Source: Actinomycetota bacterium (GTDB lineage Bacteria; Actinomycetota; Actinomycetes; Nanopelagicales; Nanopelagicaceae). From it: 45,143 nt of DNA. The stretch spans positions 1 through 45,143 of the forward strand of contig WLIT01000010.1 of the NCBI GenBank assembly GCA_009726125.1, read 5' to 3'. Below, one piece after another: positions 31,493 through 36,957 of this stretch (within the stretch, counting starts at the first letter, position 1; every line of letters starts with the position of its first letter). The notes under the pieces are model-generated. The model did not search any database. It saw only the letters and a list, made by a program, of their open reading frames with translations, and had not been told where the DNA came from. The position numbers and the translations under genes are program-made.

Positions 31493-31565
31493 GGCCCCGT
31501 CGTCTAGTGGCCTAGGACTCTGGCTTCTCAAGCCAGCTACGCGGGTTCGAATCCCGTCGGGGCTA
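31493..31565 (+). tRNA. tRNA-Glu (anticodon CTC)
   Basis: The 73-nt cloverleaf has acceptor GGCCCCG pairing CGGGGCT, a CTGGC-TTCTCAA-GCCAG anticodon arm (anticodon CTC, reading GAG) and a GGGTTCGAATCCC T-arm. The discriminator is A and CCA is not encoded. The convergent sulfotransferase gene ends only 3 nt beyond its 3' end. A second isoacceptor (TTC) must exist elsewhere to read GAA. Confidence 0.96.
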
Positions 31566-31568
31566 CAA

Positions 31569-32684
31569 CTACCTAGGAAAGCGCAATTTTCGTTTGATGA
31601 TTTTACGAAGTCGATGAAAAAACTCTTTGCTAATTGCTTTTTGCGGCATGCGTCGCAGGGAGCGCATATCAACACCAATCATTGCTTGTGCTGCGGTCGC
31701 AATTGAAATCTTTTCAACTGGCGTGTTTGTCCCAATTGGAATTCTAGAGAAATCACTCCTATCGATATCACCAATAATTTCTATTCCCAATAATTTAATT
31801 TTTGCCACGCTTTTTGCGTTGATTTCGGTGGCTGCAGTCATCGCCCATTCCGGGGTCATGATTTTTTCATCACTGGAATCGGCGCGCTCTGAGCTAGTTA
31901 GCGCTCTAATGTTGCCTTTACGGATAAAGATTTCATAAGAATCCCAATCGCCATCTATTGGATAGGTCTGGTTGATTTCAAGAAGTAGGGCAGCTTCAGC
32001 GAAGGTTAGTGAGCGATTTACTTCTATGTGTACTGGCTCTTTTAATAGACCAGCGGGAAGCCCTGAGACTTTAGTAAAAGAATCATAGAGATAAGTGGGA
32101 TTGGATTCATCTACACAAATAAGAGTAATGTTCTTCGGACCAAAAGCGTCACACCATGAAGCGATTACATCACCATGAAGATTTCGCTTCCAAAAAGAGG
32201 GCGTTAACTTTGCTTCGCCAGGCGCATCGAATATTGAATGCAACCATTGGTCGTATGAAACCTTAAGCCCATACTTCAAATATTGCTGATATGAACTTGC
32301 AAGCATGAAGGGGAGCGGGCGCCAGGTAAATACAATTTGAATTTCACGTTTTTTTAAAAGGCTTCGTATTTTTTGCACTTGCGCAGGTGAGGATTCAGAG
32401 AAAAACTCGCTACTAATAATCGCACTATTCTTTGAATAGTTAATCTTCTTTTCGAGTTTGTGCCATTCAACTGGTTGTGTGAATCTCCCACCCCGCTTCT
32501 TCCAGCCCCAAGTTTTTTCAATTATTGCCCACGCAGCTCGGTGGTGAGCCTTACCTGCTGTATGTGGATAGAAAAATCCATTTTCTTTTAAATCGCGTCT
32601 CACTTCGCTCAGAGCTTGTTGGAGCGCAGTTGTTCCAGTCTTATGGAAACCGGGATGAATAATAAGTTTTTTCAAGTTAGCCAC
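31569..32684 (-). CDS. PAPS-dependent sulfotransferase-like protein
   Basis: A 371-residue protein. The N-terminal HPGFHKTGTTALQQAL holds the 5'-phosphosulfate-binding loop (Lys15-Thr19), and TWRPLPFMLASS (Arg122, Ser130/131) fits the 3'-phosphate-binding motif. These are the sulfotransferase hallmarks; the acceptor is not predictable, though such stand-alone bacterial enzymes often act on glycans or lipids. It has no signal peptide, so it is cytoplasmic or peripheral. The GTG start overlaps the end of the TauE/SafE gene by 8 nt. It is the last gene of cysD-cysNC-permease-sulfotransferase, which supplies its donor PAPS. Confidence 0.82.
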   Translation of the reverse strand: MANLKKLIIHPGFHKTGTTALQQALSEVRRDLKENGFFYPHTAGKAHHRAAWAIIEKTWGWKKRGGRFTQPVEWHKLEKKINYSKNSAIISSEFFSESSPAQVQKIRSLLKKREIQIVFTWRPLPFMLASSYQQYLKYGLKVSYDQWLHSIFDAPGEAKLTPSFWKRNLHGDVIASWCDAFGPKNITLICVDESNPTYLYDSFTKVSGLPAGLLKEPVHIEVNRSLTFAEAALLLEINQTYPIDGDWDSYEIFIRKGNIRALTSSERADSSDEKIMTPEWAMTAATEINAKSVAKIKLLGIEIIGDIDRSDFSRIPIGTNTPVEKISIATAAQAMIGVDMRSLRRMPQKAISKEFFHRLRKIIKRKLRFPR

Positions 32685-33429
32685 CGATTAATCGGACGCC
32701 ATTAATCACAATGATTGTTATTCCGACAAAGATTCCGAGTTGGCGTTTTGGTAACCAAGAGACCAATTTTGCGGCAATTGGAGCCATTAAAACGCCACCA
32801 AGTGCCAGTCCACCAACTGCCGCCCAATCAATGTCGAGTCGAGCAATGTTTGCAAGAAAAGCAAGGCTTGCACAAACCGCAACAATGAACTCGGCAGCAC
32901 TTACAGTTCCAATGATCTTCTTTGGCTCAGTCTGTGTTGTTGCCATTAGCGTCGGAGTAACAACCGGACCCCAACCACCACCACCTGATGCATCAATGAA
33001 TCCGCCAGTAAATCCTAAATAAGTTAGATAATTCGGATTGGAGATTTCTACCAAGTTTGGTTGGTTTGCTTGAAAAATATTGCGGTAGAGCAGAACGAAC
33101 CCCAGAAGTAAGAGAATTGTAGAGATAAAGATTCGACCATTAGTTAGGTCGATTGAGGATAAGAAAGTCGCACCAAGTGCCGCACCAATCCCACCAGGAA
33201 TTGCTAGGCGCACCAAAATTTTGGTGTCAACATTTTCTCGATGCCAATGTGATATTCCGGATGCGAGAGTTGTACCTATCTCTGCTGCGTGAACAGCGGC
33301 AGATGCGACAGCGGCAGATGCACCAAGGGTTAAGAGAAGCGTTGAACTTGTTAGTCCAAAGCCCATGCCGAGTGAGCCATCAACGAGTTGGGCAATTGCG
33401 CCCGCAAGGGCAAATGGAAGCCAGGTCAT
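32677..33429 (-). CDS. TauE/SafE (TSUP) family anion permease
   Basis: A 250-residue, very hydrophobic protein with about eight membrane segments and the family's two Gly-rich half-repeats (GGIGAALGATF; GGFIDASGGGGWGPVVTPTLM). The family is named for sulfite or sulfoacetate export, but members in sulfate assimilation clusters (such as C. glutamicum CysZ) are thought to import sulfate. With sulfate-activating genes next to it and no sulfite-producing enzyme in view, sulfate import is the better inference. The ATG overlaps the cysNC stop by 4 nt (ATGA). Confidence 0.85.
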   Translation of the reverse strand: MTWLPFALAGAIAQLVDGSLGMGFGLTSSTLLLTLGASAAVASAAVHAAEIGTTLASGISHWHRENVDTKILVRLAIPGGIGAALGATFLSSIDLTNGRIFISTILLLLGFVLLYRNIFQANQPNLVEISNPNYLTYLGFTGGFIDASGGGGWGPVVTPTLMATTQTEPKKIIGTVSAAEFIVAVCASLAFLANIARLDIDWAAVGGLALGGVLMAPIAAKLVSWLPKRQLGIFVGITIIVINGVRLIGG

Positions 33430-35246
33430 TTTGCGATCTCCAGTACGATCTCTGAATTTATCTTCAAATCTTCTCTTCCATCTAATACTAGTTCAGCGTT
33501 AAGCGGCGCCTCGTACTCTTGTCCAACGCCGGTCATGTTTGGTAGGTCGCCTGCTGCAGCTTTCTTATACAAACCTTTAGGGTCGCGTTGTGCACACAGG
33601 TCTGGTGGAGTGTCTACCCAAATTTCAATAAATTTGCCTGGTGCAAATAGTTCGCGGGCTTGATCTCGGTCACCGCGGAATGGACTTACTAAAGCCACAA
33701 TCACAATTAAACCTGCATCCATCATTAACTTTGCAACCTCGGATACTCGACGAACATTCTCAGCGCGATCTTCTTTAGCAAATCCTAAATCTTTATTTAA
33801 GCCAAGACGTAAGTTATCGCCATCTAAGACATATACGTGGCGGCCAAGAGCATAAAGTTCTTTAGCCACTTCATTCGCGATAGTTGATTTTCCAGATCCG
33901 CTTAAGCCGGTAAACCAGATAACTTTTCCAATCTGGCCCTTCTGCGCCGCACGTTTCTCTGCACTAATTTCATAGGCTTGCTCCGTAACGTTTTCAGATC
34001 TACGCAAGGCGTGAACAATCATTCCGGCGCCAACCGTGTTTAGGTTCGCACGATCTACAAGGATAAAGTTTCCGGTCTCTCTGGAATCTGCATAATCCGA
34101 GAGCGCAATCGGTGAATCTGTTGCAAGTTCGACCACGCCTATTTCATTCATCTTTAAGGTTCGCGCCGAATCGTGTTCTCCCGATTCGATATTAACTTTA
34201 TGTTTAATTGTTGTAACTATTGCGGGCGTTGAACTTGATCCAGAAATCAATAGGTATGACCGGCTGTGAATTAATTCGGATTCACCAAGCCATACAATAT
34301 TTGCAGTAAAGCGATCCGCGGGGAGTTTTACATTCGAAGCTAGGTGTAAAACATCACCACGAGCAGCGTCCACTTCTGGTTCCAGAACTATATTTAAAGT
34401 TTGTTCATGTCCGGCGCTCTGTAAATCACCATCAAAGGTAATCATTTTTGCGATAGTTGCCCGCTTCTTACTTGGCAAAATTAGAACTTCATCGCCAACG
34501 CAAAATTTTCCATTTACCAAGGTGCCGGCAAGGCCGCGGAAGGTGTCAACGCGTGAAATATATTGAATTCCAAAGTGTGGGGATGTCATGTCATCAACAG
34601 CTAGCTCTTGATTCTGGATGTATTCAAGAAGCGTTGGGCCGTTATACCAATCTAAATTATCGCCCTTAAATACAACGTTATCGCCAACTAGAGCGCTGAC
34701 AGGAATGATTGCATGTTCCTTAATTCCGAGCCGAGTAATAGCTGGCGCGATATCTGCTGAAATTTCTAAAAACTTACTTTGCGAATAATCAAAAACATCC
34801 AATTTATTAATAACTATTGCAACACGACTTACACCCATCAGGGCGCAAATCGTTAAGTGGCGCAGAGTTTGTGGGCGAACCCCTCGAGCCGCATCAAGTA
34901 GAACAAGAGCAACATCTGATCTTGAAGCCGCAACTGCCATGTTACGTGTGTATTGCTCGTGTCCTGGGGCATCAGCAATTATTAAACGGCTTCCATTTAG
35001 AAGAGTCATTGATCGATATGCAACATCAATGGTGATTCCCTGTTCGCGCTCTGCTTCTAGGCCATCAGTAAGCAGTGAGAAATCAATTTCACCAGCAGCA
35101 ATTGTTGAGCCACCACGTCGGATAGTTCTTGCAGTTGCGACTGTGTCATGGGGAATGCTGTCGGTTTCTACGAGCAAGCGGCCAATCAAAGTTGACTTTC
35201 CATCGTCCACACTGCCGCAGGTTAATAATCTGATAACTGGTTTCAT
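33426..35246 (-). CDS. cysNC: Sulfate adenylyltransferase large subunit / APS kinase fusion
   Basis: A 606-residue fusion. The N-terminal CysN GTPase has P-loop GSVDDGKST (11-19), DAPGHEQYTRNM and NKLD, then the beta-barrel domains. The C-terminal CysC kinase (about 425-606) has GLSGSGKST near 446-454 and LDGDNLRLGL, and the PFRGDRDQAR segment. With CysD it makes APS from sulfate and ATP, driven by GTP hydrolysis, and the kinase converts APS to PAPS. Start ATG 35246 lies one base after the cysD stop. Such fusions are known from mycobacteria. Confidence 0.96.
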   Translation of the reverse strand: MKPVIRLLTCGSVDDGKSTLIGRLLVETDSIPHDTVATARTIRRGGSTIAAGEIDFSLLTDGLEAEREQGITIDVAYRSMTLLNGSRLIIADAPGHEQYTRNMAVAASRSDVALVLLDAARGVRPQTLRHLTICALMGVSRVAIVINKLDVFDYSQSKFLEISADIAPAITRLGIKEHAIIPVSALVGDNVVFKGDNLDWYNGPTLLEYIQNQELAVDDMTSPHFGIQYISRVDTFRGLAGTLVNGKFCVGDEVLILPSKKRATIAKMITFDGDLQSAGHEQTLNIVLEPEVDAARGDVLHLASNVKLPADRFTANIVWLGESELIHSRSYLLISGSSSTPAIVTTIKHKVNIESGEHDSARTLKMNEIGVVELATDSPIALSDYADSRETGNFILVDRANLNTVGAGMIVHALRRSENVTEQAYEISAEKRAAQKGQIGKVIWFTGLSGSGKSTIANEVAKELYALGRHVYVLDGDNLRLGLNKDLGFAKEDRAENVRRVSEVAKLMMDAGLIVIVALVSPFRGDRDQARELFAPGKFIEIWVDTPPDLCAQRDPKGLYKKAAAGDLPNMTGVGQEYEAPLNAELVLDGREDLKINSEIVLEIAK

Positions 35247-35247
35247 G

Positions 35248-36153
35248 TTAGAAGTACCCTTCGGTCTTCTTTTTCTCCATGGAATCTTCTTTATCGCCAT
35301 CAATTAGCCGAGTTGCGCGCTCTGATAATTTAACTTCAGAAACTTCAGCAAGTACCTCAGCAATTGTTTTTGCGGTTGATTCGACTGCGGCGGTCAGGGG
35401 ATAGCAACCTAAAGTTCTAAATCTAATTAAGCGGTTCTCTGGCGTTTCACCATTAATAAGTGGAAAACGTTCATCATCAACCATAAGCATTTGATCACCG
35501 CGCCAGACAATTGGACGCTCTTTTGCAAAGTAAAGTGGATTGATTGGGATCTCATTTGAACTTATGTAGTTCCAGACATCAAGTTCGGTCCAATCAGAGA
35601 TTGGAAAAACTCGCATGCTCTGTTCTGGCCGAATTCTGGTGTTATAGGTGCGCCAGAGTTCGGGTCGTTGTTCGCGTGGATTCCAACGATGACCGAATTC
35701 TCGAACGCTAAAAATTCGCTCCTTAGCTCGGCTCTTCTCTTCATCTCGGCGTGAGCCTCCGATTGCTGCATCGAAACCAAATTTATCGAGTGCTTGTCGA
35801 AGTCCAACAGTTTTCATGATTCGGGTGTACTCCGAAACCCCACTCGTAAATGGATTTACGCCTTCAGCTACACCTTCTTGGTTTGTGTGAACTATTAGAT
35901 CAAGCCCATATTTAGAAGCTATTTCATCGCGAAATGAAATCATCTCTTTAAATTTCCAAGTGGTATCGATATGTAGAAGCGGAAAAGGAATTGGCGCAGG
36001 GTAGAAAGCCTTACGAGCTAGATGCAATAAAACCGAAGAGTCTTTTCCGATTGAATAGAGCATCACTGGCTTTTGGAAGGCCGCGGCCGTTTCTCGAAGA
36101 ATCTCGATCGATTCATTTTCAAGAGCCTTTAGAATTTCTGGTGAGCTCTGCAC
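35248..36153 (-). CDS. cysD: Sulfate adenylyltransferase small subunit
   Basis: A 301-residue ATP pyrophosphatase-type subunit. The PP-loop [12 protein letters not shown] begins at residue 34, and the [28 protein letters not shown] and [12 protein letters not shown] segments are all typical. It catalyses sulfate adenylylation with CysN. GTG 36153 is the start, preceded at leaderless distance by a TAAGAT box, so it opens the four-gene sulfur operon. Confidence 0.96.
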
Positions 36154-36207: not shown

Positions 36208-36924
36208 CTATTTTTTAGCGAGATGCTCGGTAAGTCTTGCAGCCGTTGCAACTACCGCAGCCGCATGAATTCGTCCAGGTTGGCGACCAAGTCTTTCAAC
36301 TGGACCGCTAATACTTACCGCAGCGATAACTTTATTGTTCGGTCCTCTTACCGGCGCTGAAACCGATGCGACGCCGGCTTCACGTTCACCGACAGATTGT
36401 GCCCAGCCGCGACGACGAACCGCGGCAAGTGAGGCAGCGGTAAATTTAGAGTTATTTAGCGCACGATGTAATTTGTCAGCATCTTCCCAGGCAAGAAGGA
36501 TTTGTGCGCCAGAACCTGCTTGCATAGTTAGAACCGTTCCGGTCGGAACCGAATCACGAAGTCCAGATAGACGTTCTGCTGTAGCTACACAAATTCTCTG
36601 ATCACCTTGGCGGCGATAGAGCTGGGAGCTTTCCCCGGTTGCATCGCGAAGCGCGGTTAGCGCGGCGCCAGAAACTGCGAGCAGGCGATCTTCACCAGCA
36701 GCAGCTGCAAGTTCAGAGGGGCGAAGACCCAGAATAAAGCGACCTGCATAATCTCTTGAGACCATACGATGGAATTCAAGTGCTACAGCTAAGCGATGTG
36801 CGGTTGGCCGGGCGATTCCAGTTGCAGCAACAAGTTCAGATAATGAATGGGGGCCAGCTTCCAGGCAGGCGAGAATCTTTACGGCTTTATCTAATACGCC
36901 AACTCCGCTATTCTTTCTGTCCAC
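36208..36924 (-). CDS. ndgR: IclR family regulator (NdgR/LeuR-like)
   Basis: A 238-residue IclR-type regulator: N-terminal winged helix (about 5-65, with SLSELVAATGIARPTAHRLAVAL) and C-terminal effector domain. The NSGVGVLDKAV start and the place divergent from leuC match Streptomyces NdgR, which controls leuCD and other amino acid genes. GTG 36924 gives the homologue N-terminus; upstream ATGs (36948, 36945) would put the coding region across a palindrome that may be its operator. The symbol is by analogy. Confidence 0.87.
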   Translation of the reverse strand: MDRKNSGVGVLDKAVKILACLEAGPHSLSELVAATGIARPTAHRLAVALEFHRMVSRDYAGRFILGLRPSELAAAAGEDRLLAVSGAALTALRDATGESSQLYRRQGDQRICVATAERLSGLRDSVPTGTVLTMQAGSGAQILLAWEDADKLHRALNNSKFTAASLAAVRRRGWAQSVGEREAGVASVSAPVRGPNNKVIAAVSISGPVERLGRQPGRIHAAAVVATAARLTEHLAKK

Positions 36925-36936
36925 GATGTAATACTG

Positions 36937-36957
36937 GCATCTCATCATTTGAAATGC
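36937..36957. promoter_or_regulatory. Imperfect palindrome, possible operator between ndgR and leuC
   Basis: GCATCTCA, 5 bases and TGAAATGC form an inverted repeat with 7 of 8 arm positions matching. It lies between the preferred regulator start (36924) and leuC (36989), a place suited to control both genes. IclR proteins bind such short palindromes. The match to a known NdgR site is not tested. Confidence 0.45.

Follow-up and report, generated by a model that had tools for sequence, protein, structure and literature searches.

A PAPS-forming gene cassette in a small Nanopelagicaceae genome that probably serves a divergent sulfotransferase-like protein rather than sulfate reduction

What use does a bacterium with a 1.31 Mb genome have for activated sulfate if it carries no recognisable genes for reducing it? 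The question is raised by a tight minus-strand operon at positions 31569-36153 of contig WLIT01000010.1, from an actinobacterium of the acI family Nanopelagicaceae. The window (the whole stretch of DNA analysed, 45,143 nucleotides, nt) is one whole contig of a draft genome that comprises 32 contigs and is 94.8% complete. The operon consists of cysD, cysNC, a TauE-type permease gene and a gene here termed ST_A. Its product, 3'-phosphoadenosine 5'-phosphosulfate (PAPS), very probably serves ST_A-type transfer instead of reduction.

The cysD gene (35248..36153), encoding the sulfate adenylyltransferase small subunit, scored 478 bits against TIGR02039 (cut-off 397), and cysNC (33426..35246), encoding the large subunit fused to an adenosine 5'-phosphosulfate (APS) kinase, scored 737.5 bits against NF004035 (cut-off 715); both exceeded curated NCBIfam cut-offs. 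The APS kinase domain of CysNC matched PF01583 (8.8e-64), and from this domain content PAPS, not APS alone, is predicted to be made. The third gene (32677..33429) encodes a TauE/SafE (TSUP) family permease, a proposed sulfate importer, which exceeded its Pfam cut-off (PF01925, 135.8 bits, cut-off 32.6). The fourth (31569..32684) encodes ST_A, a divergent PAPS sulfotransferase-like protein of 371 amino acids (aa) that matched PF00685 at E 0.04, below the cut-off. The original prediction of four genes in one tightly overlapping operon agreed with the open reading frames: cysNC and TauE overlap by 4 nt, TauE and ST_A by 8 nt, and cysD and cysNC are 1 nt apart, provided that the ATG at 35246 is the cysNC start. 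This ATG matches the start in relatives; cysNC was listed with a TTG start at 35303. Eight genomes of the genus (the window's included) shared the cassette gene order at this site with both flanks in view; two of them (G015 and G108) had no TauE gene in the cassette. The operon is far beyond chance, and chance grouping or wrong gene calls were ruled out by the gene order conserved in relatives. On a short contig of G015 (L066, G015:C35:1-3550), CysD was only 58% and a CysN-like protein 38% like its counterparts elsewhere; the contig is probably a contaminant from another group.

Reduction genes were sought in the window's genome and in a family sample of 151 evenly drawn genomes that included it. 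Within the window's draft genome, cysD was the sole match to PF01507, so no cysH is present, and PF01077 (siroheme sulfite reductase) had no match. What had originally been claimed for the neighbourhood of the operon, that no reductase is at hand for the PAPS made there, now extends to the whole draft genome. Across the family PF01077 matched in three genomes (G076, G077, G094), CysD in 51 and ST_A in 32, and none of the 32 ST_A genomes was among the three with PF01077. The ST_A count is 32, not 33, because G033, matched weakly and partially (E 1.4e-5), was excluded; among the 33 genomes of the first pass, 16 were at least 90% complete. These counts are in line with the earlier statement that acI bacteria lack assimilatory sulfate reduction, which the accessible text of one study reports as absent from four published acI genomes (PMC5301498).

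Where reduction genes did occur, they formed clusters of their own. The reductive cluster of G094 (L094) read PF01077 protein, CysH, CysD, CysN, with a kinase-free CysN of 426 aa. Its CysH, CysD and CysN were above NCBIfam cut-offs and its siroheme protein above none; the latter is named sulfite reductase because of its neighbour genes. A siroheme protein, CysH and CysD adjoined in G077, and PF01583 had no match in either G077 or G094. In G076 a siroheme gene and the start of CysH lay at a contig end (L095), and CysD-CysNC-TauE lay on another contig beside a partial PF13469 sulfotransferase (L072). The family holds two separate gene sets, one reductive and the other the PAPS cassette, and no relative was seen in which the operon runs into reduction genes. 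Neither of the two findings named beforehand as refuting the non-reductive reading was obtained.

ST_A is likely a member of the PAPS sulfotransferase superfamily, to judge from its sequence. The motifs H10-x-GFHK-x-GT and FT-x-RP...S130-x-YQQ were invariant in 46 of 46 sequences (alignment A2) and resemble what we take to be the 5' and 3' phosphate-binding sites of PAPS sulfotransferases. PF00685 matched 21 of the 46 members at E <= 0.1 (best 2.2e-5), and one homologue (L039) passed its cut-off with 24.5 bits. Six outside relatives had 24-30% identity; three of them matched Sulfotransfer_4, one above its cut-off. Since the window's ST_A is itself below the PF00685 cut-off, it is filed as sulfotransferase-like, and its first designation as a PAPS-type sulfotransferase stands as likely. 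Close ST_A relatives came from records titled Candidatus Nanopelagicaceae, Nanopelagicales, Planktophila or Actinobacteria, with a few implausible titles (e.g., Bifidobacterium breve). A genome-wide search for other sulfotransferases returned a second ST_A and no PF13469 protein. The ST_A of G049 was split into two reading frames (L091:10826-12029), by decay or by a sequencing error in the draft genome.

The cassette and the sulfotransferase were linked across the family. By raw genome counts, CysD or a strong APS-kinase match was present in 29 of 32 ST_A genomes vs 24 of 119 genomes without ST_A (Fisher p 2e-13), and the three ST_A genomes having neither (G096, G110, G140) were 75-79% complete. 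APS-kinase presence here means 50 genomes, matches below 100 bits being left out (100 genomes at E 0.001). With G077 and G094 set aside, 51 genomes had CysD or APS kinase, and their contexts were classified by reading. ST_A lay beside the cassette in 15 (G066 and G138 pieced over two contigs; G049 with the split ST_A), another sulfotransferase or sulfotransferase-like gene did so in 19 (G076 cut by a contig end; G033 weakly alike), and ST_A lay elsewhere in the genome in 14 (13 of genus g17, for which five contexts were read, and G035). In the remaining three (G056, G057 and G146; 60, 85 and 73% complete) no ST_A or other sulfotransferase was seen. All seven alternative sulfotransferases that were scanned passed the PF13469 or PF00685 cut-off, and the rest were classed by their resemblance to these seven. 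Co-occurrence in related genomes, proposed earlier as a check, was observed, and cassettes lacking ST_A stood mostly beside another sulfotransferase. A sulfation pathway had been called unexpected in a streamlined bacterium; the cassette is present, is not peculiar to one genome and is patchy across the family.

A CysNC tree of 38 rows, 35 of them labelled (G033a, G033b and G076 unlabelled; the reductive CysN of G094 excluded), required four changes of sulfotransferase type (minimum 3, shuffled mean 14.7) and 11 changes of genus. The CysNC of G127 (genus g16) fell among the ST_A-type sequences, and that of G084, a member of the window's genus with another sulfotransferase, grouped with G087 (g2). 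PAPS synthase and sulfotransferase largely move as a unit, and the sulfotransferase is exchangeable. In other genera the cassette lay in different neighbourhoods, and other cassette types adjoined pairs of family 2 glycosyltransferase (GT2) genes. In G033 (L071:804-10388) CysD-CysNC was directly preceded by a protein of 980 aa that has a GMHRSGTS start and by one of 347 aa that is weakly ST_A-like, perhaps another sulfotransferase set-up.

Within the window's genus the cassette occupied a presence/absence site. One edge is marked by the end of a plus-strand tRNA-Glu(ctc) (31493..31566; ARAGORN, empty-site comparison), with the ST_A stop codon 3 nt past the 3' end of the tRNA. The conserved other flank is a minus-strand IclR-family regulator (36208..36948; PF01614 and PF09339 above cut-off); it shares the strand of cysD and lies 54 nt upstream of that gene. 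The IclR protein was searched in all 27 genomes of the genus. In eight of the 27 (the window's included) both flanks were in view and the cassette lay between gltX and IclR; in three (G066, G138, G155) it was found with one flank per contig. Nine genomes had gltX and IclR on one cassette-free stretch (G090, G120, G144, G060, G027, G126, G078, G102, G153). In G084 the IclR side alone was in view and was cassette-free, and six genomes were not assignable at the site (G072, G154, G096, G132, G152, G114). DNA of the window and of G120 aligned from the end of gltX across both tRNAs as far as 31580, about the tRNA end, and again from 36209, the IclR end, so that the site measured 4.6 kb in the window vs 13 nt in G120. 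Cassette-free G090 was very near the window's genome (IclR 99.6%, gltX 97.4% identical). The difference at the site reflects either insertion or loss of the cassette. In G090, G050 and G039 the site was separated from gltX by a gene pair absent from the window and presumably of the DUF1501/DUF1800 type (L203:1387-3948, L045:5574-8110, L086:5013-7552), and the region therefore gains or loses other genes too. At the same place, four cassette-free genomes encoded a small protein (162-169 aa) whose beginning is signal-like (L208:2742-3242, L209:3159-3668, L210:9686-10186, L211:7227-7715).

The second ST_A of the window's genome, 41% identical to the operon ST_A, gave an indication of the acceptor. 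No glycan or lipid assembly genes stood beside the window cassette, and such genes were present beside the second ST_A. That stretch encoded, by matches, a polysaccharide pyruvyl transferase, a MobA-like nucleotidyltransferase, two CDP-alcohol phosphotransferases, a GT2, a glycerophosphodiester phosphodiesterase, VanY and one further protein without assignment. The labels CDPOH1 for the first CDP-alcohol phosphotransferase, CDPOH2 for the second, NTPtr and the like were coined in this analysis. By raw counts again, a strong CDPOH1 was found in 29 of 32 ST_A genomes vs 9 of 119 others (p 7e-20), in 27 of 28 CysD genomes with ST_A vs 1 of 23 without, and, within the genus, in 8 of 9 genomes with ST_A vs 2 of 12 without. 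CDPOH1 presence (38 of 151) denotes this strong group, whose weakest best match was 5.2e-40, the next genome reaching 1.2e-10; at E 0.001, 144 of 151 genomes matched, and the remainder was taken to be other CDP-alcohol transferases. Among 59 family loci from named records, 27 contained CDPOH1, 18 contained CysNC and four contained both (L104, L110, L113, L120). Both the co-occurrence of ST_A with CDPOH1 and the position of the second ST_A beside the cluster suggest the cluster's surface glycoconjugate as the acceptor.

The best NCBIfam match of CDPOH1 was NF041135, a bifunctional inositol-1-phosphate cytidylyltransferase / CDP-inositol inositolphosphotransferase (77.9 bits, cut-off 580), which was also one of many matches of the linked nucleotidyltransferase (31.9 bits, cut-off 580). 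The NF041135 enzyme is a single bifunctional protein, whereas the ST_A-linked cluster has two separate genes. Inositol as a component of the acceptor is perhaps indicated, as a lead and not an identification. That the acceptor is the product of the CDP-alcohol phosphotransferase, nucleotidyltransferase and GT2 cluster, a surface glycoconjugate or lipid that contains phosphate and perhaps inositol, is a plausible proposal that falls somewhat short of probable. With the family motif in the form that we assume for CDP-alcohol phosphotransferases, His replaced the last Asp of the motif in CDPOH2 (L037:4853-5635) in 23 of 23 homologues in named-record loci, and CDPOH1 retained this Asp in 27 of 28; CDPOH2 may be inactive or altered.

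Cassette and cluster stood together in G127, where one run (L038) read ST_A-CysD-CysNC-TauE-ST_A-nucleotidyltransferase-CDPOH2-unassigned-CDPOH1-GT2. No other g16 genome in the 151-genome draw had a strong ST_A or CDPOH1 match, so that G127 looks like a joint gain. Two different ST_A genes flanked its single CysD-CysNC-TauE set (L038:8009-13963), and one PAPS supply may serve two acceptors there. G049 (g13, 78% complete) had ST_A and a CDPOH1 75% like the window's; contamination is possible in this genome.

The 3'-phosphoadenosine 5'-phosphate (PAP) left by such a transfer must be removed. Two IMPase-family genes of the window's genome are candidates for this step, one of them near the HisN model (263.8 vs 275.2 bits); PF01368, included in the search for PAP phosphatases, had no match. 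For sulfate uptake, PF01925 matched three genes in the genome, and the operon TauE is therefore not the sole family member; no SulP permease was matched there. The TSUP protein CysZ of Corynebacterium glutamicum is described, in the accessible text of PMC5840216, as a high-affinity sulfate importer, and sulfate import by TauE is a best guess for this reason. Of the import role first assigned to it, TSUP membership stood; import itself is less firmly placed, with TauE missing in two relatives and two more TauE-family genes in the genome.

In the pathway that we propose, TauE would bring sulfate into the cell, CysD and CysN would convert sulfate and ATP to APS, and the fused CysC would convert APS to PAPS. 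With PAPS as the donor, ST_A would then transfer a sulfuryl group onto a hydroxyl of a precursor located in the cytosol or the inner membrane leaflet, and this precursor would later be exported. Since ST_A starts directly with the PAPS-site motif, its action is expected to be intracellular and to precede export. The cassette would be passed on, exchanged and lost together with its sulfotransferase, and the kind of surface glycoconjugate that is sulfated would vary with the sulfotransferase.

Three other explanations were weighed against this pathway. Hidden or incomplete assimilatory reduction, in which CysDNC feeds cysteine synthesis through missing or unrecognised reductases and TauE exports surplus sulfite, would fit the common occurrence of CysDNC in assimilation, the draft state of the genome and the Pfam name of the permease family (sulfite exporter). 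It is highly improbable, since the sulfite reductase family was unmatched in the window's genome and in all 32 ST_A genomes, and reduction genes, where they occur, form a separate cluster with a kinase-free CysN; the absence of PF01077 and cysH together with this separate cluster led to its rejection, and the published report on four acI genomes points the same way. That ST_A is some other P-loop-like protein, the PAPS or APS of the cassette having a different use, is very unlikely. The sub-threshold Pfam match, the lack of a Protein Data Bank (PDB) relative and a failed profile match to the alternative sulfotransferases speak for it; against it stand the invariant PAPS-site-type motifs, the PF00685 matches in 21 of 46 members and above cut-off in one homologue, the Sulfotransfer_4 matches among outside relatives, and the occurrence elsewhere, in the place of ST_A, of proteins above the PF13469 or PF00685 cut-off. 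Sulfation of an excreted small molecule (a secondary metabolite, waste product or signal) instead of a surface glycoconjugate is unlikely, though it deserves more weight: no glycan- or lipid-making gene adjoins the operon in the window, and a DUF885 protein neighbours ST_A in two g9 loci with flanking genes in view. The second ST_A, however, is clustered with GT2, polysaccharide pyruvyl transferase-type, CDP-alcohol phosphotransferase and VanY genes, ST_A and CDPOH1 co-occur, and other cassette types adjoin GT2 pairs.

Several results weigh against PAPS synthesis for ST_A-type surface sulfation itself. The window's ST_A reached 13.7 bits against PF00685 (cut-off 22), had no PDB relative by sequence beyond one chance match (TauE had none), and its profile, compared with two sets of alternative sulfotransferases, matched the first motif alone at 12% probability or not at all. 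In the CysNC tree G076 and G033b, both without ST_A, fell inside the ST_A-type part. The co-occurrence statistics ignore kinship, for which the CysNC tree and G127 compensate partly. CDPOH1 occurred without ST_A or CysD in G090 and G120 (about 82% complete) and without ST_A in seven further genomes. TauE was missing from the operon in G015 and G108, and no dedicated CysQ was above or near cut-off in the window's genome.

At the scale of the acI family, we tentatively suggest that most PAPS cassettes serve decoration, as exchangeable units that re-dress the cell surface, perhaps against phages or grazers, and that ST_A is a new sulfotransferase family acting on an undescribed CDP-alcohol-derived (phosphoinositol-like) surface glycoconjugate. 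That a genome of this size, lacking reduction genes, pays ATP for sulfate activation would mean that the sulfated material is worth its cost. The patchy spread and sulfotransferase exchange offer a tangible marker for variation of the surface, and a search for the sulfated molecule can start from ST_A and the cluster linked to it. Among the matches listed in the open-licence literature, which is weak evidence of absence, none concerned sulfotransferases or sulfation in acI; a match for Planktophila with sulfotransferase was rejected because it concerned the plant maca.

Comparable arrangements are known elsewhere. The nodPQ genes have a role in Nod factor sulfation, and in NodPQ/NodH, much as is proposed here, a single sulfotransferase that modifies an exported glycolipid draws on an ATP sulfurylase/APS kinase set; there, by difference, the product is a symbiotic signal and the acceptor is known. 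The sulfate assimilation operon of C. glutamicum, like the operon in the window, encodes a TSUP protein, CysZ (PMC5840216); it differs in serving sulfate reduction, and the likeness of TauE to CysZ is at family level. An actinobacterial surface-signal sulfotransferase is represented by the Frankia nod region, which is described with nodH copies, and no PAPS genes are named in the accessible part of that description (PMC5059922). The pairing of PAPS genes with neighbouring sulfotransferases is recognised as an indicator of sulfated polymers, according to PMC11641403, which describes the sulfated capsule loci of Vibrio sp. KMM 8419. There, as here, PAPS synthesis genes are grouped with sulfotransferases and horizontal transfer is possible; in Vibrio the cysDNC genes are a second copy within an 80-gene capsule locus and the sulfated capsule is proven (PMC11641403). 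The window, in contrast, holds the one such set that was found in its 1.3 Mb genome, where reduction genes are lacking, has a different sulfotransferase family and is known from genes alone. Cassettes of this general type have precedents; as far as seen, what is new here is the divergent family, the setting, the exchange of sulfotransferases and the connection with CDP-alcohol enzymes.

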